Source: an uncultured Bacteroidota bacterium (GTDB lineage Bacteria > Bacteroidota > Bacteroidia > Flavobacteriales_F > PHOS-HE28). From it: 64,000 nt of DNA. The notes beneath the pieces are model-generated. The model saw nothing but the letters and a program-made list of their open reading frames with translations, did no database searches and was not told the DNA's origin. Shown here piece after piece: positions 35,997 to 50,949 of the stretch. The stretch is taken from the NCBI GenBank assembly GCA_902826215.1, contig CADEDY010000001.1:186001-250000 (forward strand). Reading direction: 5' to 3'. The translations under genes and the position numbers were made by a program. Each line of letters starts with the position of its first letter. Within the stretch, counting starts at the first letter, position 1.

Positions 35997-36007
35997 TAGT
36001 TCTCGCG

Positions 36008-36712
36008 ATGGAAGTATTCGGTCAATGTAGACTTTGCTTAACAGAGCACATAAAGCTCTGTGAGTTACACATCTTTCCGGAGTTCTTATACACCAACGTA
36101 TACGACACGGATGATCATTTCTACAATGTATACTCGAGTAAAGTCCGCCCATCTCGAAGGAGAAATGGTATCTATGAGAGGTTGCTATGTCTTGCGTGTG
36201 AGCGGAGGTTGGGCGACTTAGAAACGTACGCCCGCAAAGTGCTCTATGTCGATATAAGAACACCTGGCGTGATGACGAGTGATTGTTTCATAATCGAGAA
36301 CATCGACTATAATCGGTTTAAGTTGTTTCTACTTTCTCTTCTTTGGAGGGCGGGTGTGTCAAGTAGACCGGAGTTCGAGGCGGTGAATCTTGGAGAGCAC
36401 GAACGATTCATTCGTGAACTCCTCCACACTCAATCGTCAGGGGGGCCTTTAGACTATCCCGTCGTGTTGTTTATCATGAGAATGGGGAGCAAATCGGTAA
36501 TGGCAATGCCCTCAAAGTTCCGGCCCGTACATGGCTTTAATGGATTTAGGGCAACCATGCTCGGCCTTTCATGGATGTTCATTATAGGTCGTCACCAATC
36601 GTTCCCTGCACCACACGTCATTTTCAATAGACAGGGACATTTGCCCTTAGTAAAGGATAATGGAAAGGGCATGGACTTTCTCCATCACTGGGTTTCGCAG
36701 ATTCTGGACTGA
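36008..36712 (+). CDS. HNH/zinc-finger-like accessory protein
   Basis: 234 residues. Cys7 and Cys10 (CRLC), His21 (CELHIFPEFLY) and Cys61 and Cys64 (LLCLACERRLGDLETYA) match a common accessory-island family with the layout CxxC...HxxP(K/E)F...LLCxxCE...E. That resembles a degenerate HNH or treble-clef zinc site. The rest is alpha/beta without known motifs. The gene is visibly richer in A+T and rare codons than its neighbours, which points to recent transfer. A nuclease or DNA-binding role is possible but unproven. Confidence 0.7.
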   Translation: MEVFGQCRLCLTEHIKLCELHIFPEFLYTNVYDTDDHFYNVYSSKVRPSRRRNGIYERLLCLACERRLGDLETYARKVLYVDIRTPGVMTSDCFIIENIDYNRFKLFLLSLLWRAGVSSRPEFEAVNLGEHERFIRELLHTQSSGGPLDYPVVLFIMRMGSKSVMAMPSKFRPVHGFNGFRATMLGLSWMFIIGRHQSFPAPHVIFNRQGHLPLVKDNGKGMDFLHHWVSQILD

Positions 36713-36730
36713 CCGCACGCCGACCCAAGC

Positions 36731-36765
36731 TCCCGCGAGTCTATGACTCGTGGTTTCCCCTAGTT
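36731..36765. repeat. CGAGTC-TAT-GACTCG palindrome repeat, copy 1
   Basis: A perfect 6-bp stem (CGAGTC, loop TAT, GACTCG) followed by TGGTTTCCCCTA. It lies between the HNH-like gene and the convergent lipoprotein gene. Diverged copies are at 38513-38545 and 38610-38650. Confidence 0.65.
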
Positions 36766-36773
36766 GGGCTGTC

Positions 36774-37496
36774 TCATTGGTTTACTGCCGATGTCGCTGG
36801 CCGCCTCAGAATGTCAAAGGTGAGATAGTACTTGGCGGTCGCTAGGAAGAACCCCTGATAGACTGTTACATTACCCTTCAACTCTGAATGGATCCGTTCG
36901 GCAAGGGCATTCACCATGTGTTGGCTGACGGAGGTGTCTGGATAGATGACCACCGATCGTGGCCCCTCATCCGGCCATTCGGTTCTGGCGAACACAAACC
37001 ATTCTTCAAGGTCTGTACTGTCGGCGTACTGGTCTTGAATACCTAGCCCAAGGCCATTTAAGAATGTTCCTGGACACGTACGATGCGGTTGGCATGGGCC
37101 GAGGTAGAATGGCGTGAAGTAAGATGAAGGCCCATCGGAATACCGAGTCGACACTTCCTGCAAATAGATCTGATGAGTGCCCGTATGGATATCCGCTTGT
37201 TGGATCCGTTCGGGTTCGTACATGATGATGTTTCGGTCCAGGAGTACGGTGTCGTCTACGAAGGTGAATGCCAACCGGTCATATGGGCCATCCAAGGAAT
37301 CGCATGTCAGATGCATCGGATGCGAGGACATATCAAGTTGGGTCGGGTTCAGGAGGGACATCGTGTCACCTTGGATCTTCAACAGACCGCGCCACTCGGG
37401 AACGGTAGAAGTGGCGATCCAGGTTCCATCAAGGTCAGGCGGTCGGCAACAGGAGGCCAGGAGTGTAGCTGTCAGTAGTGTGAAGGTCCACTGCAT
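36774..37496 (-). CDS. Orphan lipoprotein
   Basis: 240 residues from MQWTFTLLTATLLASC, a lipoprotein signal with Cys16. The first part, DLDGTWIATSTVPEWRGLLKIQGDTM, looks like a lipocalin-type or META-like beta domain; no catalytic motif is visible. Ends with RRPATSAVNQ. No recognised family. It lies in the accessory segment between two repeat clusters, facing away from the HEPN-like gene. Confidence 0.65.
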   Translation of the reverse strand: MQWTFTLLTATLLASCCRPPDLDGTWIATSTVPEWRGLLKIQGDTMSLLNPTQLDMSSHPMHLTCDSLDGPYDRLAFTFVDDTVLLDRNIIMYEPERIQQADIHTGTHQIYLQEVSTRYSDGPSSYFTPFYLGPCQPHRTCPGTFLNGLGLGIQDQYADSTDLEEWFVFARTEWPDEGPRSVVIYPDTSVSQHMVNALAERIHSELKGNVTVYQGFFLATAKYYLTFDILRRPATSAVNQ

Positions 37497-37605
37497 TGCG
37501 CGTAGTTGGTACTGAAGGGATGTAAAGAACTCGGAATCTTTCAGGGTGCGATGCGTTGCCCTCGGAGCAAATCCAGCAGGCATCAGACTGGGAATGAACG
37601 GGGTT

Positions 37606-38442
37606 TCACTTCTTCTTCGTATCCGATGCCGGAGAGGTTGTCGGTTTTAGGGAAACGGTTGAACGGTGATCCGAAGGATATTTCAGCTGCTGAAGGTTGA
37701 ACTCGTCTTTGATCTTTTCTAGTTCATCACTGGTAATCTTATGAAGATCGGCGCGAAGGCCGTCATGTATCTTTAGGATTACCTCGATGACTTCCTTCCT
37801 CGTGTATTGGTTCTTGCCGGACTCTCCTACTTCAATGTAGACCCTTTGAAATGCCGCGTTCGCTTCGATGTTCGTCCTTTGGAAGATACGGTATGCCGCA
37901 TCATTGCCCAACTTGGTTTTGACATTGTCCTCATGTGCGAGGAACACCTTGCGGCATTCTTTGAGGACGTCGATGATCAACAATTGAACGCTCAATGCGT
38001 ACTTCTCCTCGTCCGTACCCGTCACACGCAACTCGTTCTGTTCCTCAAACCGTTTGATCCGCGCCAAAGCAGCCTGACCTTGGGTGCTGAATCTCCTGTA
38101 ATACTCCGTGTAGCCACTGAACTCGGTTCCGTGTGTGAACTCATTGCGGATGGCTTTGAAGTCTTTGAATGCAGAGACGTCGACATCCTTCTTCTGCATA
38201 TCCTCCAATAGCTTGATGTGGTTGTCAAAGGATAGTTCCCGGATGAAGTTGTTCTTCACCTCATGTGGGATGCCGAGGAGCTTCAATAAACCATCCTCGA
38301 TAAGTTCCTCTATGAAGGCAGATGCCCCTACGATGGTCCCACGAATTTGCTGCAGCCTCTGGTCGATCTGTGTGTTGAACTCCCTGTCAAGGGTCGCCAT
38401 AACGGCGACCGCTGGTTCCTTTTTCCAATCCTTCCTTGGCAT
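37606..38442 (-). CDS. Helical protein with HEPN/MltR-like RxxxxH motif
   Basis: 278 residues, mostly helical, no signal peptide. LIEDGLLKLLGI, LSFDNHIKLLEDM and then AIRNEFTHG (R99 to H104, the R-x4-H arrangement) follow the order seen in MltR-like and HEPN domains. HEPN proteins are often RNases in toxin or defence systems, whereas MltR-like ones are regulators; sequence alone does not decide. The C-terminal half carries a charged helix pair and a Ser/Thr/Lys-rich tail. No partner nucleotidyltransferase gene is adjacent. Confidence 0.62.
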   Translation of the reverse strand: MPRKDWKKEPAVAVMATLDREFNTQIDQRLQQIRGTIVGASAFIEELIEDGLLKLLGIPHEVKNNFIRELSFDNHIKLLEDMQKKDVDVSAFKDFKAIRNEFTHGTEFSGYTEYYRRFSTQGQAALARIKRFEEQNELRVTGTDEEKYALSVQLLIIDVLKECRKVFLAHEDNVKTKLGNDAAYRIFQRTNIEANAAFQRVYIEVGESGKNQYTRKEVIEVILKIHDGLRADLHKITSDELEKIKDEFNLQQLKYPSDHRSTVSLKPTTSPASDTKKK

Positions 38443-38512
38443 GTTCGATGTATTAACCCCAAATCTCGCAACAGAATGTTTCCAAACCTTCCCCGAATCT
38501 CGGAGAGGACCC

Positions 38513-38545
38513 CGCTACTGCGAGTCTATGGCTCGTGGCCCCCTG
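38513..38545. repeat. CGAGTC-TAT-GGCTCG palindrome repeat, copy 2
   Basis: CTGCGAGTCTATGGCTCGTGG, split by its loop TAT, with one G.T pair in the stem. It is immediately left of the regulator-tail remnant at 38563. Confidence 0.6.
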
Positions 38546-38562
38546 CTCTCGCAACACCCCCC

Positions 38563-38592
38563 TCACGCCAACCCATTGGCAAAGGCCCAACT
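38563..38592 (-). pseudogene. LuxR-type regulator 3'-end remnant (last 9 codons)
   Basis: On the minus strand this reads SWAFANGLA then TGA, identical at protein level to the end of the remnant at 41661. An in-frame TAG lies two codons upstream, so nothing of the gene survives beyond this tail. Confidence 0.6.
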
Positions 38593-38609
38593 CTAACCCC
38601 CGGCAGGGT

Positions 38610-38650
38610 ATTCCCCAGCTACCGCGATTCTGTGACTCGTGTTTTCCCTA
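38610..38650. repeat. Palindrome repeat, copy 3 (diverged)
   Basis: CTACCGCGATTCTGTGACTC followed by GTGTTTTCCCTA matches copy 1 in order and spacing, with three stem or loop changes. It leads directly into hairpin copy A. Confidence 0.5.
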
Positions 38651-38666
38651 AGTTCAAGCCATGCAG

Positions 38667-38687
38667 GGTCTTCCGTCTTCGGAGACC
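38667..38687. repeat. 21-nt hairpin repeat, copy A
   Basis: Arms GGTCTTCCG and CGGAGACC with loop TCTT and one bulged T. It is followed by TTGCACCTCGAAGCCG, shared in similar form with copies B and D. It lies 73 nt before the gene at 38760, with no plus-strand gene directly upstream. Confidence 0.75.
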
Positions 38688-38759
38688 TTGCACCTCGAAG
38701 CCGTAGTTCACGAGCTTGTATCAAGCTCTACTTTCGTTTTCAGAATCAGGAACAGCCAA

Positions 38760-39239
38760 ATGAAGACGCTCATATCTATCATAACCCTTCTACTACTATT
38801 CGTAGCATGCACTGAGACAGACACAAATGGCCAAACCCAATTCCTCGACCCTAACACGATCGAACAAGGAGGCTATCGTCGTGATGCGCTCACAAGCGAA
38901 CAGCTCGCGACGATCGATACGTTGCACAGGATCTTCGGCGAGGCCGATGCCTTCACCAAGGAGGCATGGGTAGACAACATGCGACGCGATCTTGATCCGG
39001 ATCGTGAACTTGGCATCTTCATGGACATGGCTCGGGCCTATGAGCAATTCACGACTGGGAGATCGCTAAGCGCCGAAGCAAAGAAGGAGGCATACAAGGT
39101 GGTGCTTATGAGGTCTATGTCGAGTCCAGAAGAGGTCAAGGCACGTCTTGACTTATCGCACCTAACGCTAGCCGACGCGGACACGCTGATGAGTTACATG
39201 GAGATCGAGCCACAGCCCGTGCGAGTAGTAGCCGAATAA
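38760..39239 (+). CDS. Small orphan lipoprotein
   Basis: 159 residues from ATG 38760. Signal ITLLLLFVAC with Cys17. The mature part is helical (RDALTSEQLATIDTLHRIFG, DPDRELGIFMDMARAYEQF) with no recognised domain; LTLADADTLMSYM is near the end. Hairpin B follows 45 nt after the stop. The gene sits alone between two copies of the repeat. Confidence 0.65.
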   Translation: MKTLISIITLLLLFVACTETDTNGQTQFLDPNTIEQGGYRRDALTSEQLATIDTLHRIFGEADAFTKEAWVDNMRRDLDPDRELGIFMDMARAYEQFTTGRSLSAEAKKEAYKVVLMRSMSSPEEVKARLDLSHLTLADADTLMSYMEIEPQPVRVVAE

Positions 39240-39283
39240 GGTCACCCAGATACAGTTAACTCGTGAAGGGGTTAGACCTTTGC

Positions 39284-39307
39284 GGGGTCTTCCGTCTTCG
39301 GAGCCCC
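39284..39307. repeat. 21-nt hairpin repeat, copy B (lengthened stem)
   Basis: GGGG and CCCC extend the core, which keeps CTTCCG, loop TCTT and CGGAG. It is followed by TGCGCCTCGAAGCCGC. It lies 45 nt after one gene and 78 nt before the next. Confidence 0.75.
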
Positions 39308-39384
39308 TGCGCCTCGAAGCCGCTACGAACAAACCACACCAGTGCAGTGATTCGGATCTGTGATCCAGATCTACCTTCATCGTC

Positions 39385-39978
39385 ATGAGGCTGGTAAGGC
39401 TGGTATCACTGACCGGTTGGGTTTTCGTTATCGCGCTCTTGGTGGTAATGGGTTGTCGTAGTGCGGCTCAACCACATGCCTATGGGGTCACTTCCAGCAT
39501 GCGGTGTGCTGCTCCGTTGCATCACGTTGCGATCCTGAATACGGCCGCTGAACGGAAGTATGGGCCGATCATCCATGGAGAGCCTGTGCCGCTTTCCAAC
39601 AAGGAGGTTGAACGCGCGGAATGCGTGCTGCGGGATTTCATCAGTTGGCACAATGGCATTGGTCGCGCAGCACGCGACTCTGTTCACTTGGCTAGTGGTG
39701 GCCTCATCCGGCCTGAGTGCCTCACTCGAAATGGGATGAACGATTACAAGCAATACGCCGGTGAGCGATCACCCACAGGCGAACTCATCATTCACATGCA
39801 ATCGTTCTGCAAGGACCCTTTGGAGCCGTCCTTCCCTGGTCGCTTTCTAACCACATCATGGTTTTCGGTGGACGATGGTGGAGACTGTTATTTCGAAGCA
39901 GAAGTGAACCTGAGCGCTGGAACGGTTATCCGGTATTCCATCAACGGTCCTTATCCTACGGATGGGTGGTGCCCTTGA
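39385..39978 (+). CDS. Orphan lipoprotein
   Basis: 197 residues. Signal WVFVIALLVVMGC with lipid Cys24. Contains VPLSNKEVERAECVLRDFIS and, near the end, WFSVDDGGDCYFEAEVNLSAG, which reads like a small beta sandwich. Several cysteines may form disulfides. No family recognised. Repeat copy C begins 31 nt after the stop. Confidence 0.65.
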   Translation: MRLVRLVSLTGWVFVIALLVVMGCRSAAQPHAYGVTSSMRCAAPLHHVAILNTAAERKYGPIIHGEPVPLSNKEVERAECVLRDFISWHNGIGRAARDSVHLASGGLIRPECLTRNGMNDYKQYAGERSPTGELIIHMQSFCKDPLEPSFPGRFLTTSWFSVDDGGDCYFEAEVNLSAGTVIRYSINGPYPTDGWCP

Positions 39979-40009
39979 ACGTGGTGCACATTGGTCTGAA
40001 CCACCGTAA

Positions 40010-40030
40010 GGTCTTCCGTCTTCGGCGACC
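40010..40030. repeat. 21-nt hairpin repeat, copy C
   Basis: GGTCTTCCG, TCTT, CGGCGACC, preceded by ACCACCGTAA as in copy D. It is directly followed by the 3' tail of a regulator remnant on the other strand (40056). Confidence 0.75.
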
Positions 40031-40055
40031 CTGCGCTAATATCTATCTCGAACCC

Positions 40056-40152
40056 TCACGCCAACCCATTGGCAAAAGCCCAACTGACAAAGCCGATCGG
40101 ACTTTGGGTCTGTGGCGCTTGGCAATGCGCTCGCGGTAGGTGCGCTTCGCCA
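40056..40152 (-). pseudogene. LuxR-type regulator 3'-end remnant (about 32 codons, frameshifted)
   Basis: On the minus strand one frame gives RTYRERIAKRH, the recognition-helix end of the HTH; another frame, one base off, gives GFVSWAFANGLA and TGA. The DNA of the first part matches the remnant at 41661 at about 22 of 24 positions. A one-base indel separates the two halves, so this copy is dead. Confidence 0.65.
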
Positions 40153-40243
40153 ACTGTAACATTGAGGATCAGCACCTTCGCGTGCCGGCCTACGTTGCCG
40201 GATCAGAGTAGCCCGTGTGCCGCCGAATGCTTAAATTCAAGAC

Positions 40244-40624
40244 ATGGCTGAGACCCGCTATTTCGAACTGCTCTTGTCCGTGTCACATCGGCCTGCGATG
40301 TACGGCGTCCAAGATGTGGTGGACCTAGCAGCGTTCTTGACCGGCTTCGGGCTTGGGTCAAATGAACCTGAACTGCAACAGTTGCTAGGGCGGTTCACAG
40401 ACTTTCTGAAGAAAGAGAATCCCGAGTATCACGGATCCACATGCGGCTGGAGCCAAATTATCAAAGCGCAGAGTTATGAGCGGGGTGGTTCGATCGAATT
40501 GTTCCGTCGGTCCCTTGGCAGGATGTTGGTTGAAGAGGGTCACTGGACAGATGAGCACTTCGACCTCTTCACGACCAAAGGTTCGGTGACGAGCGAGGAG
40601 CTGCGATCGCTTCCTGTGCCGTGA
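40244..40624 (+). CDS. Small cytoplasmic protein, possibly immunity-like
   Basis: 126 residues, acidic and helical. LLSVSHRPAMYGVQDVVDLA near the N-terminus recalls the RPxMY...L..FL.G pattern of small immunity-type proteins in polymorphic-toxin loci, but I cannot confirm the family. FRRSLGRMLVEEGHWTDEHFD follows. No toxin gene is adjacent. Stands alone between hairpin copies C and H. Confidence 0.6.
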   Translation: MAETRYFELLLSVSHRPAMYGVQDVVDLAAFLTGFGLGSNEPELQQLLGRFTDFLKKENPEYHGSTCGWSQIIKAQSYERGGSIELFRRSLGRMLVEEGHWTDEHFDLFTTKGSVTSEELRSLPVP

Positions 40625-40641
40625 TGACTAGGATGGCGTAA

Positions 40642-40660
40642 GGTCTTCTCACTTAGATCC
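40642..40660. repeat. Degenerate hairpin repeat, copy H
   Basis: GGTCTTCT at the left and AGATCC at the right still pair, but the loop differs and the usual CTGCGCC flank is absent. It is 18 nt past a stop codon, the same place as better copies. Confidence 0.4.
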
Positions 40661-40701
40661 GGAAAACAACCTTGTTGACCACAGACCAATAGCTTCGTGC
40701 G

Positions 40702-41013
40702 ATGCGTAAACTACTTCTCGGCCTAGGAGTGATAGTGCTTGTCGGAGTGGTCTTGAACCCAGGCATGCGGGACTTCAAGGAAGCTGCGCCAACGTCACGT
40801 GAACTGCTTCAAGAGTATCCCGTGAAATCTTTAACGAGCGTTAACGACAAACAGATCAGCTTCCGCAGTGAAAGGAATTTTCTGGTCTGCTCGATCTATC
40901 GTCTGGACTACGTGATAATCGTTGGTTCACACTTTGAAAAGGGGCATACAGCGAAACCAGTGACCCGGCTCTATCTGGGCATCGCGAAGAACTTCTTCTT
41001 GATGGCTGAATAG
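40702..41013 (+). CDS. Small single-helix membrane protein, DUF4359-like
   Basis: 103 residues. One N-terminal helix (LLLGLGVIVLVGVVLNPGM), then RDFKEAAPTSRELL. The ending, RNFLVCSIYRLDYVI...LYLGIAKNFF, follows the order seen in DUF4359 proteins (NP after the helix, FSIY, G-x-NF at the end). The assignment is tentative. Hairpin copy D starts 17 nt past the stop. Confidence 0.6.
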   Translation: MRKLLLGLGVIVLVGVVLNPGMRDFKEAAPTSRELLQEYPVKSLTSVNDKQISFRSERNFLVCSIYRLDYVIIVGSHFEKGHTAKPVTRLYLGIAKNFFLMAE

Positions 41014-41029
41014 TTCTAGACCACCGCAT

Positions 41030-41050
41030 GGTCTTCCGTCTTCCAAGACC
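41030..41050. repeat. 21-nt hairpin repeat, copy D
   Basis: GGTCTT at the left and AAGACC at the right form the stem; the inner CCGTCTTCC has changed. Followed by CTGCGCCTGGAAGCCGC. It is the terminator position of the gene before and 38 nt upstream of the antitoxin. Confidence 0.75.
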
Positions 41051-41075
41051 CTGCGCCTGGAAGCCGCAACGCCAT

Positions 41076-41083
41076 TACCTTTG
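41076..41083 (+). promoter_or_regulatory. -7 box just before the antitoxin start
   Basis: TACCTTTG fits TAnnTTTG exactly and ends 5 nt before the ATG at 41088. Transcription would begin at or next to the start codon, giving a leaderless mRNA. No clear TTG lies 19-20 nt upstream. Confidence 0.5.
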
Positions 41084-41087
41084 AACT

Positions 41088-41288
41088 ATGCGTACCACGG
41101 AGGAGAAATTGCACAAGAAGGTCGTGTTGGAGCGGATCAAGGCCATGCCGGAACGTTTTACGGTGGATGAATTATTGGAGCACATGGTGGTGGTGCGCAA
41201 AGTGGAGCGTGGTATGAAGGAGTTGGAGGCGGACAAAGGCCTAACGCCCGCACAAGCCCGGAAGAAGTTGGCCAAATGGCTGAAGTGA
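41088..41288 (+). CDS. Antitoxin of a ParE-type toxin-antitoxin pair
   Basis: 66 residues. The pattern KVVLERIKAMPERFTVDELLEHM, split by family variation, then VVVRKVERGMKELEADKGLT and a basic C-terminal KKLAKWLK, is the small antitoxin type seen beside RelE/ParE toxins in Bacteroidota. It should bind the toxin and repress its own promoter. It overlaps the toxin gene by 13 nt, which supports co-translation. Confidence 0.82.
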   Translation: MRTTEEKLHKKVVLERIKAMPERFTVDELLEHMVVVRKVERGMKELEADKGLTPAQARKKLAKWLK

Positions 41289-41599
41289 TCTGGACGCCCG
41301 GGGCGCTGGAGGACATTGATGCCATAGCATCATATATCGCCTTGGATTCCTCTGCGCGTGCCAAGCAGCAAGTGATGCGGATCCTTTCAGCGGAGGAACT
41401 GTTGGTGCACTATCCGGGGAGTGGCCGCATGGTCCCGGAGATGCAGAGCAAGGTCTATCGGGAAGTGATCCTACCACCGTATCGGATCATCTATCACTTC
41501 GCGCCGAAGGGAAGTGTTGCTGCGATCCTGGCGGTGATCCACTCCAAACGGCAACTACCGACAAGTGGAGTGCGGAAGCGACGTGGATCGGAAAGGTGA
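41276..41599 (+). CDS. RelE/ParE-family toxin
   Basis: 107 residues. WTPGALEDIDAIASYIALDS is the N-terminal ParE helix pair, then YPGSGRMVPEMQSKVYREVI and PYRIIYHFAPKGSVAAILAVIHSKRQL, the core sheet with the family Arg and His residues. ParE toxins poison gyrase and RelE toxins cut mRNA; ParE-like is favoured by the YRIIYHF strand. The pair sits alone between hairpin copies D and E. Confidence 0.88.
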   Translation: MAEVIWTPGALEDIDAIASYIALDSSARAKQQVMRILSAEELLVHYPGSGRMVPEMQSKVYREVILPPYRIIYHFAPKGSVAAILAVIHSKRQLPTSGVRKRRGSER

Positions 41600-41619
41600 C
41601 AGAACCTGGACCGTCGTGG

Positions 41620-41640
41620 GGTCTTCCATCTTTGGAGCCG
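41620..41640. repeat. 21-nt hairpin repeat, copy E
   Basis: GGTCTTCCATCTTTGGAGCC (then G) keeps the register with compensatory A/T changes in the stem. It is 21 nt past the toxin stop and immediately 3' of the regulator remnant on the minus strand. Confidence 0.7.
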
Positions 41641-41660
41641 CTGCGACTCTACGTACCCCC

Positions 41661-41849
41661 TCACGCCAGCCCATTTGCAAAAGCCCAACTGATAGGTGCG
41701 GTCTTCCCCGAAATGCCATGACACTCCGCAATGCGTTCGCGGTAGGTGCGTAAGGTGCTGAGGTGGCAACCCATGATGTCGGCGATCTCCTTGTAGGGTC
41801 GCCCACAACGATCGAGGAGCGTCGGATATCGGTCTGCGAGTCGTGGGTT
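41661..41849 (-). pseudogene. LuxR-type HTH regulator remnant (62 codons, no start)
   Basis: On the minus strand, after an in-frame TGA, 62 codons read through to a stop. They include LADRYPTLLDRCG, RPYKEIADIMGCHLSTLRTY, RERIAECHGISGKTA and SWAFANGLA. This is the four-helix GerE/LuxR DNA-binding domain of a response regulator, with the KEIADIM scaffold helix and the STLRTYRERI recognition helix. The receiver domain and start codon are missing. It overlaps the promoter region of the gene at 41881. It is the best copy of the tail also found at 38563, 40056 and 49316. Confidence 0.72.
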
Positions 41850-41880
41850 TCATTTCGCTACTCTTGTAGGACAAACGACC

Positions 41881-42915
41881 ATGATGAAAACCATATTGAC
41901 CACACTGACCCTTGCCGCCACCACCTTTGCCGCGTTGGGCCAGATCCCGAATCGGATAGGCGCCACACCCCAGGAACTGGCAGCCATGGCCGGTCGCACC
42001 TTGGTCGTTCAGTTGGACCCGGTGGACCCGGAGATCTCCGCAGCGATCCTGACAGAGATGAAGAAGAAGAAGAACGAAGCCGAGGGCTTCAAGGCCAACT
42101 ACGAAGCCTCCCAGCAGTCGTACCTGGACAATATCGAGGCGGCCATGGCGCAGGGATGGCAATTCAACGAGAAGGTGGAATTCCGCACGGCAGAGGAATG
42201 CAAACAGCTCTTCTTGAGCAAGAGCCCGGACCATGTGGTGATGAAGAAGGAGATGTACGGGGCGACGCCGTTCAATTCGCTATCCACCTCCAGTGGATGG
42301 CGCCACTATGCCATGCCTTTTGGGGTCACAGCCCTGAGGTTCTACCGTACCGATGTGGTAGGCGCGAACAAGAAAGGCGATCTGGGTTTCGGGGATCCTG
42401 ATTTCCAGATGTACATGATCGGCGACTATGGCCCATTGGGCAAAGCACTCTACTCGGAGGATGATCTGGTTGCCACGTTGAAGCAGGCACAGAAGGTCAT
42501 AGCGTGGTGCATCGGACGCGAGAAGCCGGAGGACTACTTCGCCTATGCGAAGGAACAGGCCGAACTGCACTGCCACCTGCTTCAGAACAAGACCGTGATG
42601 GCCGAAAGCAATTTCAACTACAAGGACATCCAGGAGTCGGAACTGCGGGAAGCGTATACGCGCGCCTTGGAATTCGTGGATCATGAACAACTGGGTAAGA
42701 TCTACCGAAGCGGTGCGGATGATCGTGTGGTGTTCTTCGCTGTACCCATCGGCCACGTCGTCGGGATGGGAGGAGAGTCGCACATCGCCTACATGAAGAT
42801 CGCCGTGGATCCATCCAACGACATGATCGTGCATGGATCTTTTCCGATGGCGGGAGGTGGTGTGGTCCGTCCCTATTCGAAGGTCGACTTCAAGGCCTTG
42901 GCGAAGTGTAAGTAG
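41881..42915 (+). CDS. Secreted protein of unknown function
   Basis: 344 residues. Signal peptide ILTTLTLAATTFAALG ending before QIPNRIG. No C-terminal T9SS domain, so probably periplasmic. Contains a Lys-rich helix (EMKKKKNEAEGFKANYE), then FNSLSTSSGWRHYAMPFGVT and, near the end, DDRVVFFAVPIGHVVGMGGE. No recognised family or active site. Start codons ATG at 41881 and 41884 are both possible. Confidence 0.72.
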   Translation: MMKTILTTLTLAATTFAALGQIPNRIGATPQELAAMAGRTLVVQLDPVDPEISAAILTEMKKKKNEAEGFKANYEASQQSYLDNIEAAMAQGWQFNEKVEFRTAEECKQLFLSKSPDHVVMKKEMYGATPFNSLSTSSGWRHYAMPFGVTALRFYRTDVVGANKKGDLGFGDPDFQMYMIGDYGPLGKALYSEDDLVATLKQAQKVIAWCIGREKPEDYFAYAKEQAELHCHLLQNKTVMAESNFNYKDIQESELREAYTRALEFVDHEQLGKIYRSGADDRVVFFAVPIGHVVGMGGESHIAYMKIAVDPSNDMIVHGSFPMAGGGVVRPYSKVDFKALAKCK

Positions 42916-42943
42916 CTTGGAGGAAGTTCTTGCCGACGATGCC

Positions 42944-42975
42944 GTGCGCTTCGCACTAGGTGCGCCTTGCCAAAG
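42944..42975 (-). pseudogene. Short LuxR-regulator DNA remnant
   Basis: The plus strand reads GCGCTTCGCACTAGGTGCGC and then CTTGCCAA, which matches the piece around 40121-40151 (GCGCTCGCGGTAGGTGCGC, then TTCGCCAA). It has no coding value here. It follows the secreted-protein gene by 29 nt. Confidence 0.45.
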
Positions 42976-43026
42976 CCGTATGGATGATCGGCCTGTTCCG
43001 TAGCTCGCTGGTATTACCCTATACGC

Positions 43027-44676
43027 TCAGTGCACCACCATGAACCGCTGCACACGCTGCATGCGGCCATTGTTCCATTCGAGGAGGTATGCGCCTTCGG
43101 GCAGGTCCACGGTGATGGGCCGATCACCGGTGATCACGCCAAGGTCGGAACATACACGACCAGCGCTGTCGCTAAGGCGCACGTGACCTGTGCCGAAACC
43201 GGTGGTAAGTGCCTGGCCTGCACGCACCGGATTCGGATAGAAGGCGGAGAACGTAGCCTGTTCCTGCACCGCATTGGGGCCTGCTTCGGCAAGTCGCACG
43301 TAGAACGAAGCTGTTGACGACGATGTATCGGCCAACACCCCAGGCCCGGGGTCGAGGTCGATCTCGCCGAAGGAAGAGCCGGCGGCATGGATAACGTCCG
43401 CATCGTCAACGTAAAGACCACGGCCCGTTTGGCCATTTTCGCCGCCCACAACGAGGACGCTTGCGAAGTCGCCGCCCGATGTGTACCGCGCTAGGAACAT
43501 GTCGGTGCTGCCCGCGTTGGCCACCTCCGCAATGCCGGGCCCGGGGTCGAAGTCTGCGGTTTCCAGCACGTAGCCATTGTACAGGGCGTCTCCATTGGCC
43601 ATGATGCGCACCGAATGCGAACGACCGTTACCCGGTATCCCGTGGACCCAAGCCACTGCACCATCGGCATCTATCTTGGCGATGAGCGCATCACTCGCGG
43701 TGACCGCAGTGATGTTCGTGAGGTCCGTTCCATTTCCCATGGTGGCTGCTCCTCTGAAATGCCCGGCGAGGAACATTTCCCCTGCCGCATTCACATCCAT
43801 ATCGTAGCACCAGTCTTCCAGCGGCCCGCCGAACCGGCCGCCCCAGAGAAAGTCGCCAGCTGCATCCAGCTTGAAGTAGAAGCCATCATCAACTCCGGCA
43901 GAAACCACTTGGAAGGAGTTGGGTCCGGGATCCAGGTCCATGGTTCCGGAGAAGATGCCGACACCGTGTATACCACCGTCGGGACCCACGCTCACATCGG
44001 TCACATTGCGGCCGTTGTTGCCCGGAAGCACGCGCGCCCAATTCAAGGTTCCATCGGGTTGGAACGAAGCGACCAGTCCACCTCGCTGGGTACTGATCAG
44101 GGGAATGCCGTCCACGGCAGCTTGAGTGTCCGCATATCCGGAGACGACAATGTCGCCCGCATCGGAGAGCGTGACGCCGAAGAGGCCATCGGTCCCCGAA
44201 CCGCCTACTTCCTTCACCCAGATCAACTCACCCGACGGACTTAGTTTGACCAAGTAACCATCCTGTTGTCCGCCGCTCAGTTGCGTCACTCCATCTCCGG
44301 GGTCGAAATCGGCCAGCCCGCCGAAGCAACCGACCACATACACGTTCCCCGCCGCGTCCGTGACCACATCCTGCACCCATTCGACCTGTGACTCATCACC
44401 ACCGAACCGTGCCACCCACTGGAATTGGCCGGAAGGTCCCAGCTTGCACACGTACCCATCCGCTGAGCCGATAACCTCAACGATCGCTTCACCGGTGTCT
44501 GGGTCGAAGTCGGTGTTGTCTGACACCTGACCACCTACGAAGATGTTGCCCTCGGTATCGGCCGCGATCCCGTAGGTGTTGCTCGTGCCTTCTCGATGCA
44601 GATACCTGCCTTCTGCAAGGTATTGCCCGTGGGCGTGAAAGGTGATGAAGGCGAGAAGAAGAGTAGTTGGTCGCAT
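43027..44676 (-). CDS. T9SS cargo protein with propeller-like repeats
   Basis: 549 residues from MRPTTLLLAFITFHAHG. About eight repeats of the form GDEGNIFVGG...DFDPG, with DFDPGDG, DLDPGPN and DFDPGPG recurring, typical of SBBP-like beta-propeller surface proteins. The DFDPGPG loops may bind calcium. The C-terminus is a T9SS type A domain (FYPNPVRAGQALT, LLEWNNGRMQRVQRFMVVH). A start at 44703 is also open but precedes the signal peptide. Confidence 0.85.
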   Translation of the reverse strand: MRPTTLLLAFITFHAHGQYLAEGRYLHREGTSNTYGIAADTEGNIFVGGQVSDNTDFDPDTGEAIVEVIGSADGYVCKLGPSGQFQWVARFGGDESQVEWVQDVVTDAAGNVYVVGCFGGLADFDPGDGVTQLSGGQQDGYLVKLSPSGELIWVKEVGGSGTDGLFGVTLSDAGDIVVSGYADTQAAVDGIPLISTQRGGLVASFQPDGTLNWARVLPGNNGRNVTDVSVGPDGGIHGVGIFSGTMDLDPGPNSFQVVSAGVDDGFYFKLDAAGDFLWGGRFGGPLEDWCYDMDVNAAGEMFLAGHFRGAATMGNGTDLTNITAVTASDALIAKIDADGAVAWVHGIPGNGRSHSVRIMANGDALYNGYVLETADFDPGPGIAEVANAGSTDMFLARYTSGGDFASVLVVGGENGQTGRGLYVDDADVIHAAGSSFGEIDLDPGPGVLADTSSSTASFYVRLAEAGPNAVQEQATFSAFYPNPVRAGQALTTGFGTGHVRLSDSAGRVCSDLGVITGDRPITVDLPEGAYLLEWNNGRMQRVQRFMVVH

Positions 44677-44839
44677 GCGCGTGGTGTAGTTGCTGGCGTA
44701 CATCGAGGGGGGCTTTCAAAGGTGAACATATGGACCCGGTTCCGGCAAGGGAGAGCTTGTTGGGGAGCGATACTCATTGGCACTCTTGTGCCGTGGCCGC
44801 ACGTTGCCGCACAACCGTACGCCGTTACGCCATCGCGGT

Positions 44840-44860
44840 GGTCTTCCGTCTTCAGGGACC
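44840..44860. repeat. 21-nt hairpin repeat, copy F
   Basis: GGTCTTCCG, TCTT, then CAGGGACC, with a slightly weakened stem. It sits in the 349-nt gap between divergent genes (44676 and 45026), so it cannot terminate a plus-strand gene here. Nothing else coding is seen in the gap. Confidence 0.7.
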
Positions 44861-45025
44861 GTGCACTTTCTGTCGAGAGCCCGTGACCGGTGATCAGCCC
44901 CCTTGCTTCTGATCCGCGGGCGGCCACACATTCCGATCAGGTACGTGAAGTTGAACGCAGATCCAGATATCGGCAATTGCACAGGTGAGCGCTGCACCTA
45001 CTTTGCGCTCCGCGAGAACCAGCCG

Positions 45026-46255
45026 ATGAAGAACTTCACCCAAGTTGTACTGTTGAGCCTATTGGCGGGGTTGCTCCATGGCTGCCATTTGATCAAGGTG
45101 CCCAAGTTGGCGAAACAAGGGAACGTGACGAAGAGCGACTACCTGCACGAAGCGCCGTTCGACTATTCGAAGGGGCTGATCCTAGTGGATGTGGTGATCA
45201 ACGGCAACACCTACAACTTCGTTTTCGATACCGGCGCGGAACTGAGCGTGATCGGCGCGCACATCGCCGATGCGGTGGATCATCAGGTGGTCGCCTCTGC
45301 CAAGGTGAAAGCCACGCAGAACAAGTCGGAGAGCAAGGTCGAATTCATCCGCATACCCAGCATAACACTTGCCGCAGTGGACTTCGAGAACACCGGGGCC
45401 ATCATTGCCGACCTCGCTCATATGAACGAGAGCTTCGGTTGTAGGCCGATCGACGGGATCATCGGGAACAACCTGATGCGCAAGGCCGCATGGCAGATCG
45501 ACTATGCCGCTGAGAAGCTCAGGGTTTCGGACAGTGCCGCGAAATTCAGCGTATCGGATCAGGCATCGGCCTTGGCGATGGATGCGGGTAGGATCAGGAA
45601 CGTCTTCTTCGATGTAACGATCGATAGCGTGAGCGCTCGCTTTGCCTTCGATACCGGCTCTACGGGCAACATCCTTGCGGACAGTAGCTTCTTCGCTAAG
45701 TTGAAGGCGAAGAACCCAGCGTTGGAGTACATCAGCACAACAGGCCATACGTCCACCGATCTGAATGGTAAGCAGAAAGGCCGCACCATCAACGCACGGG
45801 TAAAGCGCATTGATGTGGAAGGTCTGGTGATCCCCGATCAGGTCATCTTGCTCTCTGGCCGAAGTACGTACCTGATGGGCAACGAGATCTATGAACACTT
45901 CACCCTGACGATCGATTGGGAGAACGACACCTTGTTCATGGACCCGGTCCGGACATTCGAAGCCGATACGATGAGGGGCTTCGAGGTCAACATCGTACCC
46001 AATTTCGCAACCCGGCTGTTCGAGATCTCACGATCCCAAGACCAGCATCCACTGGCCGACCCGATCGGCATGGAGGCGAAGATCCTGAAGATCAACGCGA
46101 CGGATGTTGCGCATTTCACGCTGGAGGAGCTCTGCACCTATTGGGAGCAGGAAGGCGAGAACATCCGGAACGCCAGCACCCTTGATGTAGAGGTACTGGA
46201 TGAAGGAGTAACGAAGCAGGTGCGGCTGACGAACAAGGTCCTGCTGCCGAAGTGA
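45026..46255 (+). CDS. Lipoprotein with two retropepsin-like aspartyl protease domains
   Basis: 409 residues from MKNFTQVVLLSLLAG; lipobox LLHGC with Cys20. Two aspartyl-protease half-sites are visible: FVFDTGAELSVIG (Asp68) and FAFDTGSTGNIL (Asp209), each followed by a hydrophobic-Gly region (IDGIIGNNLM, YLMGNEIYEHF). A PDZ-like stretch lies near the C-terminus (AKILKINATDVAHFTLEEL). Probably a periplasm- or surface-anchored protease. A candidate promoter is TTG 44977-44979 with TACTTTG 44998-45004. Confidence 0.85.
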   Translation: MKNFTQVVLLSLLAGLLHGCHLIKVPKLAKQGNVTKSDYLHEAPFDYSKGLILVDVVINGNTYNFVFDTGAELSVIGAHIADAVDHQVVASAKVKATQNKSESKVEFIRIPSITLAAVDFENTGAIIADLAHMNESFGCRPIDGIIGNNLMRKAAWQIDYAAEKLRVSDSAAKFSVSDQASALAMDAGRIRNVFFDVTIDSVSARFAFDTGSTGNILADSSFFAKLKAKNPALEYISTTGHTSTDLNGKQKGRTINARVKRIDVEGLVIPDQVILLSGRSTYLMGNEIYEHFTLTIDWENDTLFMDPVRTFEADTMRGFEVNIVPNFATRLFEISRSQDQHPLADPIGMEAKILKINATDVAHFTLEELCTYWEQEGENIRNASTLDVEVLDEGVTKQVRLTNKVLLPK

Positions 46256-46374
46256 GGTGTGGTGGAGATCGGGCTGGGACATTCGTTTTCGCATACCTGT
46301 GCCACGAACCTCTAACCTCGTATTATCGCAGGATCCCTGACGTTGATAGCACGATCGCAATCAGGCCGACCGGG

Positions 46375-47907
46375 TCATTCTTTGATGAAAGGAACCGTTG
46401 TTGAAGAACCGTCTTGCATTACGCAGCTTAGCAAATACGTTCCAGCGGCACATGATCGCAGGTCGATCTTGCCGTCTTGAAAGGCGTTCCCGGGGATCCG
46501 TTGCAGTCTTCGGCCTTGCATATCGATGATATCGATCCATTGCCAGCGCACGTTGCTTTTGAGGAAAAGCTCATCCGTAGCGGGATCTGGAAATACCGTG
46601 ATCGCGGTCCGATCCTCGGAACTGCCGACCCCTTGCAGTAAGCAGGGATGGTACACCGCAAAGCCCGCCCCAGCGCTGAGTTCGATCTCAGTCATGGATC
46701 CAAAGGAGGTTGATGTTCCGGTGGGAGAAGAGACGGCATAGGACACTTCCCACACTTGAATGGGCGGCGAGCTATCGTGGCATGGAAGAACGCCATCGGG
46801 CCCAGTTCGGAGCAGTTGCATGGCACTGTATCCGTTCAGATCACTGATCCGGCTCGAGACCGCGAAACCATCCTCATTCAATGTTGCGAATTGGGTTTGA
46901 TCCTTCAAGAAATCGGATACGCCATACCGGTGCTGCCACACAAGCGCACCTTGGTCATTCGTCCGCACCAACCAGGTGTTCAGGTAACTATAGCCCGAAA
47001 AGACGAAGTCACCGTTGAGCAGTTGTTCTACACAGTACCCTTTATCGATATATGCAGCGTCGCCGTATGCCGTCATCCATTGCATATTCCACAACGAGTC
47101 CATGCGCAGGAGGAATGCATCCGCTCCAACGGAGCCAGTAACGATGTATCCATGGTCGACCCCAGGTGCGATCGCATTTGCCCAAGAAATTCCCGGATCA
47201 ACGACCTTGTTGGACATCGTATTCCCACTATCGTCGATCTCCATCATCCCAATTGCTACTGCGATCGAACCCAACGCAGTGCCCACTAAGGCGAATCCAC
47301 CTCCACGTGTGGCACAAGCACCAGCAATGCCCTGAAGCATCTCTGGGCCAAATGCACGGGTCCAGATGACACTTCCATCTTCTCGAATGCGGATAGCGAA
47401 GCCTCTTTGACCGGAAGTCGTGGCCGCTCCACCGACCAGTAGCGCGCCTTCGTTAGGCACTAGGACCAAGGCAGTGCCCTGATCATCGCCGATCCCGCCG
47501 TACGCACGTGCCCAAACCAGATCGCCATTCACATTGGTCCTGATCACGAACACATCCAAGCCACCTGGACCGAGGTCATTACAGGTTCCTAAGCCCATGA
47601 AACCACCATCAGCGGTTTGGGTCACATCTCGCAGGAAGTCACTTCCCGGGCCACCGAATGTTCGCGTCCACAAGGTGTCGCCAGCAACGTCGGTACGAAC
47701 AAGAAGGGCATCTGTACTACCTGCTCCCGCTTCATCCTCCACATACGAAGAACCTCCCAGAATGAAACCGCCGTCCGTTGTTGTACCTATTGCGGTGCCG
47801 CTTTGTCCGCTCCCACCATAGTTCACTTCGAAGGGCTGGCCACTTGATCGTTGAGTAACGAGGCACATCAACAAGGTCAAAGCGGTGAGGTGTGGTCCGT
47901 AACGCAT
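46375..47907 (-). CDS. T9SS cargo protein with delta-60-like repeats
   Basis: 510 residues. Signal ALTLLMCLVTQRSSGQ. Repeats of about 50 residues run TTDGGFILGGSS...ALLVRTDVAGDTLWTRTFGG, TADGGFMGLGTC...FVIRTNVNGDLVWARAYGG and so on, the pattern of delta-60 or kelch-like propellers common in Bacteroidota. The C-terminal domain has VFPDPATDELFLK, IDIIDMQGRRLQR, CAAGTYLLSCVM and VPFIKE. Surface or secreted; no enzyme motif. Confidence 0.85.
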   Translation of the reverse strand: MRYGPHLTALTLLMCLVTQRSSGQPFEVNYGGSGQSGTAIGTTTDGGFILGGSSYVEDEAGAGSTDALLVRTDVAGDTLWTRTFGGPGSDFLRDVTQTADGGFMGLGTCNDLGPGGLDVFVIRTNVNGDLVWARAYGGIGDDQGTALVLVPNEGALLVGGAATTSGQRGFAIRIREDGSVIWTRAFGPEMLQGIAGACATRGGGFALVGTALGSIAVAIGMMEIDDSGNTMSNKVVDPGISWANAIAPGVDHGYIVTGSVGADAFLLRMDSLWNMQWMTAYGDAAYIDKGYCVEQLLNGDFVFSGYSYLNTWLVRTNDQGALVWQHRYGVSDFLKDQTQFATLNEDGFAVSSRISDLNGYSAMQLLRTGPDGVLPCHDSSPPIQVWEVSYAVSSPTGTSTSFGSMTEIELSAGAGFAVYHPCLLQGVGSSEDRTAITVFPDPATDELFLKSNVRWQWIDIIDMQGRRLQRIPGNAFQDGKIDLRSCAAGTYLLSCVMQDGSSTTVPFIKE

Positions 47908-48043
47908 GGAACGATGGTATCAATGGAGTTGCAGGTCATAGACGTTCATCAGAACGCTGGGATGCTTTTGACCCGGCTTGGAACAGGGGTGAAATTTGGG
48001 GTTGATGTCCGAAGATAGGTTCAGTAGAGTTTAGACCATTGAA

Positions 48044-48064
48044 GGGACTTTCGCCTTCGGTGCC
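48044..48064. repeat. 21-nt hairpin repeat, copy I, at the break of a gene remnant
   Basis: GGGACTTTCGCCTTCGGTGCC minus its last base aligns in register, and the left flank TTTAGACCATTG matches TTCTAGACCACCG at copy D. The T9SS-gene remnant starts directly at its right end. Confidence 0.55.
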
Positions 48065-48570
48065 TTCGTGATCCGCGAGGACGGGGATTTCCTATTCAGC
48101 CAGGTCCCCGGGAACTTCACCAATGGCCCGCTGTTCGTGGATGCGTTCGGCCCTGTCTTCAGCACGCCGGATGGCACCTTCATGACCGTTCATACGGTCG
48201 GCGTGAATGGCGCCCCCGTGAATATCTACCGGTTGCCCGGCACGCTGCCGTGCATGGATTGTTATGGATCACCACAACCGGAGCCTACCGTTGTGGGCGG
48301 CATCATCCAAGGTGCCCCCCCCCATCGGGTATGATCCTGCTGCCCAGTCCTGCACAGCACGAAGTGCAGGTTCGCCTCGATGGTGCGGTCGGGCAAGCGG
48401 ATCAACTGATCATCTTCGATGCGTCAGGTCGTGTGGTCTTGCGCAGCGCCGTTGCGACCAAGGACTTGACCGTGCTCTCGATCAGCCAACTGGCCAACGG
48501 ACGCTATACCGTAACGGCTGTGCGGGGTGATCGACCGATCGGTTCATCGCTCTTGTTGATCGCTCGCTAG
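48065..48570 (+). pseudogene. 3' remnant of a T9SS cargo gene, frameshifted at a C9 run
   Basis: The frame starting at the repeat reads VIREDGDFLFSQVPGNF and continues to VVGGIIQGAP. At 48314-48322 a run of nine C shifts the frame by one. Dropping one C restores a continuous product through GMILLPSPAQHEVQVRL to LSISQLANGRYTVTAV and SLLLIAR, a T9SS C-terminal domain. No start codon or signal peptide survives. Either a decayed gene end or, for the shift alone, a homopolymer error. Confidence 0.75.
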
Positions 48571-48661
48571 TGCGGGCTATTCCTATTTCAAAAGCCGCAC
48601 GCTAGACCCGATCGAACGGTATTAGCTTCGACCGGAGCGGTCAAAGCCGCACACCCTACCC

Positions 48662-49270
48662 ATGCACAGTAAGCTAAGTCTATTGGTCATTGGTCTGCTA
48701 TCCTGCGGCACGGTGGTCCAAGAGGATAACGACACCCCGACCGCCTTGCAGGAACATGGGGTGGTGGACCAGTTGGCCACGGAGGTCAAGTCGGTTTCCA
48801 GCCGAAGTGGATATGGCCGTGATCTGGTGGAGGATCTGTTCCTGGATGCCCTGAAGAAGGACACGGCACTCGCACGGGTATTGTCGGAAGTGGAGCAACG
48901 ACAGGAAGAGCACCCGGATATCGTGGCTCCATTTGATCGGGCGATGGGGTTGAGCGCCGCGTATTATGGGGATGCCAAGAGCCATGCGATGCAAGTGAAT
49001 GATAGCGTCGTGATGGACCGTGAGATGGCGATCCTGGCGCGCAGCGAGGCGAGCTTCAAGACCTACACGTCCAGCGCAGATCGGATACGTTCGGAGTATG
49101 AACGAACAGAAACGCGCATGGGCGATCTGGTGGAGGTCCTGAAGCTCCAACGCACCTTGGCCTTGATGGAGAGCCACCAGATGAAGGAGGGAAACTTCGA
49201 GGCGCTGTGGAAAGAGGAGCTGGCGCGCTTGCAGGCCTTGGAAAAGGCGTTGGAAGCGCAACGCAAATAA
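48662..49270 (+). CDS. Helical lipoprotein of unknown function
   Basis: 202 residues. Signal LSLLVIGLLSC with Cys15. The mature chain is almost wholly helical, including DLVEDLFLDALKKDTALARV and VEVLKLQRTLALMESHQMKE, with a charged coiled-coil end (LARLQALEKALEAQRK). No recognised domain. Hairpin copy G starts 20 nt after its stop. Confidence 0.68.
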   Translation: MHSKLSLLVIGLLSCGTVVQEDNDTPTALQEHGVVDQLATEVKSVSSRSGYGRDLVEDLFLDALKKDTALARVLSEVEQRQEEHPDIVAPFDRAMGLSAAYYGDAKSHAMQVNDSVVMDREMAILARSEASFKTYTSSADRIRSEYERTETRMGDLVEVLKLQRTLALMESHQMKEGNFEALWKEELARLQALEKALEAQRK

Positions 49271-49289
49271 GGAGTTCGTGCGCCGTAGG

Positions 49290-49346
49290 TGTGATCCGTC
49301 TTCGGAGTCGCCGTCTCACGCTAGCTCGTTGGCAAAGGCCAACTGA
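49290..49346. repeat. Hairpin repeat copy G joined to a LuxR-regulator tail remnant
   Basis: The hairpin at 49290-49310 keeps ATCCG, TCTT and CGGAGT. On the minus strand 49316-49346 reads the same regulator end with one base deleted (QLAFANELA then TGA). The order tail then hairpin is the same as at 40010-40085 and 41620-41690. Confidence 0.6.
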
Positions 49347-49615
49347 TCAAGGTTTCCTTCCGTGACCTTGCACCGACCCTGCCGCGCGATAGGGCGCACG
49401 GCTTGGCCCATGGGTTCGCAGGTCGGCTTCCGGAAATGCTGGATCCGGTCGCTTGGAATTGGCGGGTTTCCAGCGGGCTCGTACTTCGAGGAGAAAGCTC
49501 GGAGGGAAGGAACGAGCAAGGGTCTGTCGGATACCAAAGGGCGGAGGAGGTATCGAGTTGCCGGATCCCTGCTATCTTCGATGAACACGACCGTCCAACA
49601 GTTCTAACACCCGAC

Positions 49616-50803
49616 ATGATGCTGAAGATCTACGCTTGCTTGCTGTTCTGTTTCCAGTTCATGTCCGTGCACGGGCAATGGACGGCGCTCACCTCGCCAT
49701 ACGCGGGGAACATGTGGACGATGGAATTCTTCAACGACGACCTGGGTTTCATGAACACGAACAGTAACCTGCTGAAGACGACGGATGGAGGTTCAACATG
49801 GTCCGTTACCACCTTTCAAGGAAATGTGGACGGCGATTTCTCGTTCCCGACCAGCACGGTCGGCTACCTGGCGGGCTATTACGATGTGATCAAGAAGACG
49901 ACCGATCAAGGGGCCACCTGGACCACGTTGACCATCAACAACCAAGCATTGCCGATCTATTCCGTGAGCTTCGTGGATGCCAATATCGGTTGGGTGGTCA
50001 GTCTCAATGGGTTCATCAGGAAGACGATCAATGGCGGCGCCACGTGGACCGCGCAGTCAACCAGTGGATCGCCCACGTTGCGACATGTGCATTTCGTGAA
50101 CGAGAACCTCGGTACGGCGATCGGCGAGAATGGTGCTATCCGGCGTACAACGAATGGAGGAAATACTTGGTCGGCTGTTTTCGGCGCCCCGTCCACCTAT
50201 CTGAACGATATCTTCTTCGTGGATAGCAACGTGGGCTTCATCGTGGGTGGTCAAGGAACGATCATGAAGACCACGGATGGCGGGGTGAGTTGGACCCTGA
50301 TGAGCAGCGGCACTACCGAGTGGTTGTCTGCGGTGTGCTTCCGCAATGCGCTGGAGGGATATGTAGGGGGATCCAGCGGCTTCATGATGAAGACCATCGA
50401 CGGTGGTTCGACCTGGACGGTGGAGGATAACCCCTACTTCTTTTCGACGCAGAAGATCAATGACATCGTGTACAAGAACGGGGAGTACCTCGCCATCGGT
50501 GATGGGGGACATATTACCCGGACCGGTGCGGTGAATGGCATTGGATCGACCGAGGAGGTCGGACCAGCATTCGAGGTCGGCCCTAACCCGGTAGCGAGTA
50601 CCCTGTTCATTCGCGCACGCGAACAGATGAATCTCCCATTCAAGGTCCGTGTGTTCGATGTCGGTGGAGCATTGATCCGAACGGTCAGCCTGCCAGTGGA
50701 CAGGGGTCGTTTGGATGTGGCGGACCTCAGCAACGGCTTGTACGTGGTCGAGGTGGAGTCGGGGTCTTCGTTGACGCGCATGAAACTCGTGGTGCAGCAC
50801 TAG
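49616..50803 (+). CDS. T9SS cargo protein with Ycf48-like repeats
   Basis: 395 residues from MMLKIYACLLFCFQFM; signal cleaved before QWTALTS. Seven or so repeats of the form FVDSNVGFIVGGQGTIMKTT followed by DGGVSWTLM, the Ycf48/BNR-type propeller blade. The C-terminal T9SS domain has FEVGPNPVASTLFIR, VRVFDVGGALIRTV, DLSNGLYVVEVE and ends RMKLVVQH. Longer in-frame starts upstream lack a signal peptide. The 345 nt before it hold repeat copy G and otherwise nothing I recognise. Confidence 0.87.
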   Translation: MMLKIYACLLFCFQFMSVHGQWTALTSPYAGNMWTMEFFNDDLGFMNTNSNLLKTTDGGSTWSVTTFQGNVDGDFSFPTSTVGYLAGYYDVIKKTTDQGATWTTLTINNQALPIYSVSFVDANIGWVVSLNGFIRKTINGGATWTAQSTSGSPTLRHVHFVNENLGTAIGENGAIRRTTNGGNTWSAVFGAPSTYLNDIFFVDSNVGFIVGGQGTIMKTTDGGVSWTLMSSGTTEWLSAVCFRNALEGYVGGSSGFMMKTIDGGSTWTVEDNPYFFSTQKINDIVYKNGEYLAIGDGGHITRTGAVNGIGSTEEVGPAFEVGPNPVASTLFIRAREQMNLPFKVRVFDVGGALIRTVSLPVDRGRLDVADLSNGLYVVEVESGSSLTRMKLVVQH

Positions 50804-50949
50804 CACAAGGATCTGGCGGTCATTCCCTGTGCTGCGCGAACACAGCGCGGACCGACCACCGCACGCGAGCGGGCGATCTTCTTTGCGTTCATGTCGTGGA
50901 AGGGTCGATGCGTTTCAGCGCCACTTCACGAAGCGTCCGTTCAAGTTGG

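Follow-up and report, generated by a model that had tools for sequence, protein, structure and literature searches.

Palindromes in an integron-like array 3′ of nrdA in an uncultured Flavobacteriales bacterium are very probably decayed REP elements of a RAYT-associated family

The 64 000-nucleotide stretch of DNA analysed here (the window; positions 186 001–250 000 of contig CADEDY010000001.1, assembly GCA_902826215.1) comes from an uncultured Bacteroidota bacterium and carries, 2.7 kb downstream of an nrdA-like gene (for the large subunit of ribonucleotide reductase), the start of an array of small unrelated genes with short palindromes between them. A preliminary description had counted eight copies of a 21-nucleotide hairpin plus a weak one (H), and had raised the possibility of a gene-capture process resembling an integron. 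We find that the hairpins are very probably repetitive extragenic palindromes (REPs) of a genus-specific family associated with a REP-associated tyrosine transposase (RAYT), decayed in a variable locus, and that the array merely resembles an integron. The palindromes, with scores from a covariance model (R1) built from 30 genus copies, and two further candidates are the following.

38650–38699 (core 38667–38687), plus strand: REP-like palindrome A; 53.3 bits, E = 1.5e-9; 13/13 pairs; z −3.9.
39269–39318 (core 39286–39306), plus strand: REP-like palindrome B; 59.2 bits; 12/13 pairs.
39993–40042 (core 40010–40030), plus strand: REP-like palindrome C; 52.6 bits; 11/13 pairs.
41013–41062 (core 41030–41050), plus strand: REP-like palindrome D; 54.8 bits; 10/13 pairs.
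41603–41652 (core 41620–41640), plus strand: REP-like palindrome E, decayed; 45.8 bits; 11/13 pairs, one two-sided change.
44822–44872 (core 44840–44860), plus strand: REP-like palindrome F, decayed; 43.4 bits; 9/13 pairs; folding no better than shuffles.
48043–48062, plus strand: copy G of the preliminary description, unsupported; matrix score in the background range; no model match at E ≤ 0.05; folding no better than shuffles.
49288–49307, plus strand: copy I of the preliminary description, a relic at most; only TCCGTCTTCGGAG in common with the core; no model match; folding no better than shuffles; beside a copy of a LuxR remnant.

The 21-mer GGTCTTCCGTCTTCGGAGACC occurs five times in the window with up to three mismatches, always on the plus strand, where shuffles lead one to expect 0.00. 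The covariance model found A–F, all on the plus strand (E ≤ 3e-7), and at E ≤ 0.05 matched none of G, H and I in the window; on a position-specific scoring matrix made from A–F, G (48045) and I (49290) lie at or near the window background (16.6 for I, with background reaching 14.2). Six of the copies first described therefore stand, as singlets in one orientation, 0.6–3.2 kb apart. The 3′ flank that several had been said to share is real, being CCTCGAAGCCG or a close variant in A, B and D. Compensatory stem changes, also claimed for these copies, are clear within the window only in A and E, and most changes break pairs; the pair count for F is a lower bound, one extra base shifting its outer pairs. 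When the window copies are folded as single strands of DNA, A and D are the only two that clearly beat shuffles. By the same measure, a copy on contig C19 and the copies that flank RAYT genes in genome G014 (see below) are intact, and the window copies look like stranded, decaying singlets. Outside the window, the 21-mer search of the whole genome gave one weak occurrence (contig C10) and one exact, the latter at the very end of C19 (L002:29–49, minus strand), which hints that the assembly stopped there at a repeat or a second array it could not get through; the model counts 11 copies in this genome at E ≤ 0.01. An Rfam scan of the window returned nothing but a tRNA.

The hairpin is a dispersed repeat, as the preliminary description had allowed, and one largely confined to a single uncultured Flavobacteriales genus. 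Copies were found with the covariance model in 37 of the 45 genomes of this genus (E ≤ 0.01), with 1 to 47 per genome where present, whereas a sample of 145 genomes from the rest of the class yielded none. The 21-mer itself was found at 39 places in 14 of the 45 genomes (up to three mismatches), against 3 for a reversed control pattern, and an exact-pattern scan of one genome per species across 84 980 species matched only metagenome-assembled genomes named Flavobacteriales or Bacteroidota. Alignment of the copies reveals an element longer than the 21-mer, with the consensus AAACC-(T)(C/G)CGCAGGGTCT-(variable apex)-GACCCTGCG: a conserved 5′ foot, AAACC, and a base, (T)(C/G)CGCAGGGTC/GACCCTGCG, in which an unpaired T is invariant, are topped by an apex that varies by copy and genome (TTCCGTCTTCGGA, CTCCGTCTTCGGG, CTCCTGAGGCACGAAGGG, CTCCCGCAGGG, TGCCGCTTCGGC) while its pairing is kept. 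At this level compensatory change is evident, with 23 two-sided cells versus 6.0 in shuffles. Across the genus, 65 of 77 copies are intergenic and 7 lie inside genes, at loci whose coding fraction is 0.79; 31 copies share the strand of their upstream gene and 34 lie opposite to it, and the four possible gene arrangements are equally common (14–18 each). The element is thus a short (20–50 nt) imperfect palindrome, mainly intergenic and repeated within genomes, as REPs are.

Sister species link the palindrome to a transposase, a 188-amino-acid Y1 (HuH) protein whose gene it brackets. Genome G014 has two near-identical genes for a 190-amino-acid transposase, each between palindromes of the family; the genus was searched with this protein and the fetched loci were scanned with the covariance model. 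A palindrome lies within 200 nt of 14 of the 18 RAYT-clade genes and of none of ten distant Y1 genes (Fisher p = 1.5e-4), and since the model held no copy from RAYT-clade loci, this test of association is independent of it. Of 27 placements, 25 had the expected orientation, with a gene-strand palindrome upstream (mostly 24–38 nt before the RAYT start codon) and an inverted one past the stop. The four clade members lacking a palindrome match are the most diverged (41–44% identity), and the diverged loci that were looked at carry a related palindrome with an altered stem (TCAAGGTC...GACCTTGC, TCAGGGTC...GACCCTGA), as co-evolution of transposase and palindrome would give. In one case (L093:2376–2948 and 5595–6167) a pair of RAYT genes, nearly identical and separated by 3.2 kb, has a set of flanking palindromes for each gene, a recent duplication of the whole REP–RAYT unit.

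The proteins themselves point the same way. The NCBIfam family NF047646 (REP-associated tyrosine transposase) matches all 17 aligned proteins at E ≤ 0.001 (best E 9.6e-19), Pfam Y1_Tnp matches 12 of them, and the motifs PNHxH and YxHxNP are kept in nearly all RAYT-clade members. The top PDB match of an AlphaFold model (predicted local distance difference test score, pLDDT, 89.7) is 4er8 (E 4.5e-7), the structure of a RAYT in complex with a REP hairpin. The genome that contains the window has no RAYT-clade member at E ≤ 1e-5. Its single Y1 gene (C1:328199), considered as a candidate mobiliser, falls outside the clade and has no hairpin nearby. A transposase locus carrying the hairpin, which the preliminary description had recommended seeking, accordingly exists in sister species and not in the window genome.

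Several known systems invite comparison. E. coli REPs and their TnpA_REP (group 2; 4er8) resemble the present family in the bulged palindrome, the conserved foot 5′ of the hairpin and the protein fold, but have a GTAG foot and hundreds of copies (PMC8266576), where the present family has AAACC and no more than about 47. Pseudomonas REP singlets have been interpreted as remnants of REPINs (PMC3116915), which are close inverted REP pairs; pairs of this kind, about 45–50 nt apart, occur in G002 and G024, whereas the window copies are all same-orientation singlets and include no such pair. CGTC-type REPs, some of which occur in Bacteroidetes, are likewise short palindromes whose foot is other than GTAG, and have no dedicated transposase (PMC3733652), whereas the palindromes here flank one. 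The closest description, in the accessible text of PMC6006769, is that of TnpA_REP subclass 2.6, or RAYT group 5, which belongs to Bacteroidetes and has atypical secondary structures on either side. Our family probably belongs to it, placed by description rather than by tree: shared features are a Y1/HuH protein of about 180–190 amino acids that has an NHxH and a YxHxNP motif as well as a conserved SS, atypical hairpins on both sides of the gene, and further copies of these hairpins elsewhere in the genome. The clade motifs are NH[VAL]H and Y[IM]H[AHGRT]NP or NA, with most members 186–203 amino acids long, where the group is described as having NH[LIV]H, YIH[QN]NP and about 179 amino acids; the foot here is AAACC and the base CGCAGGGTCT/GACCCTGCG, and the accessible text of PMC6006769 states no palindrome sequence. 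For Bacteroidota RAYTs, whose hairpins were termed atypical, the present data supply a defined palindrome, which has AAACC as its foot, CGCAGGGTCT as its base and a co-varying apex, together with its cognate transposases, and how RAYTs that lack a GTAG foot recognise DNA becomes directly testable.

TnpA_REP binds a single-stranded bulged hairpin together with its 5′ foot, and cuts and joins beside it. Here the RAYT would likewise bind the hairpin and the AAACC foot and cut and join next to them, and we infer that the palindromes were mobilised in this way. In the sister species a palindrome, a RAYT gene and an inverted palindrome form a bracket, and the palindromes are present in addition as intergenic singlets and inverted pairs. 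The window genome now lacks such a RAYT, which leaves its copies stranded as decaying singlets; they would have gathered 3′ of nrdA, where genes are gained and lost, and the array may in part have been enlarged by local duplication or recombination. The last suggestion comes from four 3′-end fragments of one decayed gene of the LuxR type, with a helix-turn-helix (HTH), which lie on the minus strand beside palindromes (38560–38594, 40053–40087, from 41658, and, weakly, 49313–49347). Relatives of this gene are found at the corresponding locus in G013 (L154:9712–9840) and G044 (L148:7720–7848), and no close copy of it exists elsewhere in the window genome, where the next best match is only 51% identical. 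That the fragments recur beside palindromes suggests local duplication or recombination within the array, and this would account for the common orientation of all copies. A same-orientation series in G002 (C1:2031633–2035332) has near-identical 3′ flanks beside each copy, which again indicates local duplication. As to replication-strand bias as a cause of the common orientation, the GC skew sampled in G002 and G038 is weak and independent singlets are few. A longer repeated element, with CGCAGGGTGWCCGC upstream and GGCTCGGAGCCGTGATCA downstream in common, was considered for G002, G015 and some of the window genome's own copies, and did not align as a single unit across copies.

A number of observations sit less easily with REP elements left behind by a RAYT. 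The foot is AAACC, the GT[AG]G tetranucleotide 5′ of the stem, a mark of canonical REPs only, being absent; copy numbers of 0 to about 47 per genome are low for REPs; the first transposase scores 52 bits, under the NF047646 equivalog cut-off of 80; a RAYT could have escaped the assembly of the window genome at a contig break, given the intact hairpin at the end of C19; and the duplication mechanism is deduced from gene fragments. In addition, a palindrome scoring 30 bits or more lies on nrdA's strand no more than 4 kb 3′ of nrdA in 9 of 19 genomes, where copy number predicts about 1% of genomes (nominal P 6e-14, the genomes being related), and random insertion does not explain this hotspot. 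It could be a single old insertion kept by descent, although the apex types there differ among genomes. A more novel reading would be that co-oriented REPs 3′ of nrdA act as single-strand recombination breakpoints, at which small genes such as toxin–antitoxin pairs are exchanged by the RAYT or by host functions within a fixed accessory locus, an idea to which we give only a slight chance.

The genes of the locus bear on a further alternative. The nrdA-like gene is 81–90% identical in most genomes of the genus; it and the neighbours considered here are listed below.

33443–35944, plus strand: nrdA-like gene for the large subunit of ribonucleotide reductase, a conserved anchor just upstream of the array; an open reading frame whose function is named from sequence rather than from a family search.
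38760–39239, plus strand: gene for a small putative lipoprotein, without a match in Pfam.
39385–39978, plus strand: orphan gene of atypical codon usage, missed by the codon model.
40244–40624, plus strand: 126-amino-acid gene; genome G004 has a 52% identical homologue, also 3′ of nrdA, with no good hairpin in its vicinity.
40702–41013, plus strand: 103-amino-acid orphan gene.
41088–41599, plus strand: type II toxin–antitoxin pair, a 66-amino-acid antitoxin (41088–41288) and a ParE toxin (41276–41599; PF05016, E 1.4e-15).
41664–41801, minus strand: LuxR-type HTH gene remnant (repeats D4/D9).

The hairpins might be recombination sites of an undescribed accessory-gene capture process, through which gene-plus-hairpin cassettes enter the nrdA locus. 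In several species differing small genes, often toxin–antitoxin pairs, do lie near co-oriented hairpins 3′ of nrdA, the hotspot described above is another point in favour, and the ParDE-like pair, which recurs in G015 with 94% / 80% amino acid identity, is hairpin-flanked in both G000 and G015, with homology beginning right past the upstream hairpin in each. This pair is, however, the sole unit in common; the hairpin ahead of it in G015 scores a weak 18 bits, and the distance to the 3′ hairpin is 4 nt in one case and about 205 nt in the other. A single case of this kind might be a coincidence, or might arise if genes and REPs tend to occupy the same gaps. Relatives do carry different genes at the locus, as had been anticipated: the 9.5 kb downstream of nrdA are hypervariable, a gene there having a homologue in a mean of 0–12% of other loci. 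This holds whether or not palindromes are present, so palindromes are not needed for the variability. Together with the decay of the window copies, the absence of an orientation bias to genes among the 77 copies, the cognate RAYT and the lack of attC boxes and of IntI, this makes capture, a process raised in the preliminary description, improbable in our view.

The hairpin is very unlikely to be a common terminator, or an mRNA-stabilising 3′ hairpin, homogenised by gene conversion. Copies B, C, D and E begin about 16–46 nt past the stop of a plus-strand gene, which is where such a structure would be placed and where the preliminary description had put G as well, although the gene preceding G (46375–47907) is on the minus strand. 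No copy is followed by a T tract, and a terminator scan gave no match at the copies. The roughly 11 copies in the genome are not behind core genes, and the genome-wide search for the 21-mer did not give the even spread after core genes that had been named as the mark of an ordinary terminator. Placement upstream and downstream of genes is equal across the genus, and at RAYT loci the palindrome lies 5′ of the gene, on its strand. As for a sedentary chromosomal integron with degenerate attC sites, the single genes, the toxin–antitoxin unit, the one orientation and the intervening palindromes are a superficial likeness, and it is scarcely credible, since neither strand has RYYYAAC/GTTRRRY (R″/R′) boxes around any of the six copies (the hairpin is not an attC, as had been recognised), gene orientation is not fixed across the genus, and none of 44 genomes reaches the TIGR02249 (IntI) cut-off, the best matches lacking model positions of about 182–238. 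A tyrosine recombinase-like gene with one in-frame TGA, under the integron integrase cut-off, lies at C29:21164–21979 in G000. The integron-like appearance of the array is thus explained by relics of a REP/RAYT family, with the probability given at the outset.

The accessory region 3′ of nrdA extends over 36000–50900 in the window and was also delimited in L143–L162, with toxin–antitoxin pairs in several species; at L163:1109–2430, in G015, an intact palindrome lies between two consecutive toxin–antitoxin pairs. A further same-orientation series, of five good palindromes and one weak, occurs in G009 (L094:2260–8566, contig C170), with small genes between the palindromes and a cyanophycin synthetase-like gene adjoining. 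The nrdA locus also holds a second palindrome family, which is found in 12 of the 45 genomes and lies 3′ of nrdA, on nrdA's strand, in G000, G002, G013, G038 and G044. Its copies in the window are as follows.

36731–36753, 38516–38538 and 38620–38642, plus strand: second palindrome family, CGAGTCTATGACTCGTGG type (CGAGTCTRTGACTCGTGG); 0 expected by chance.

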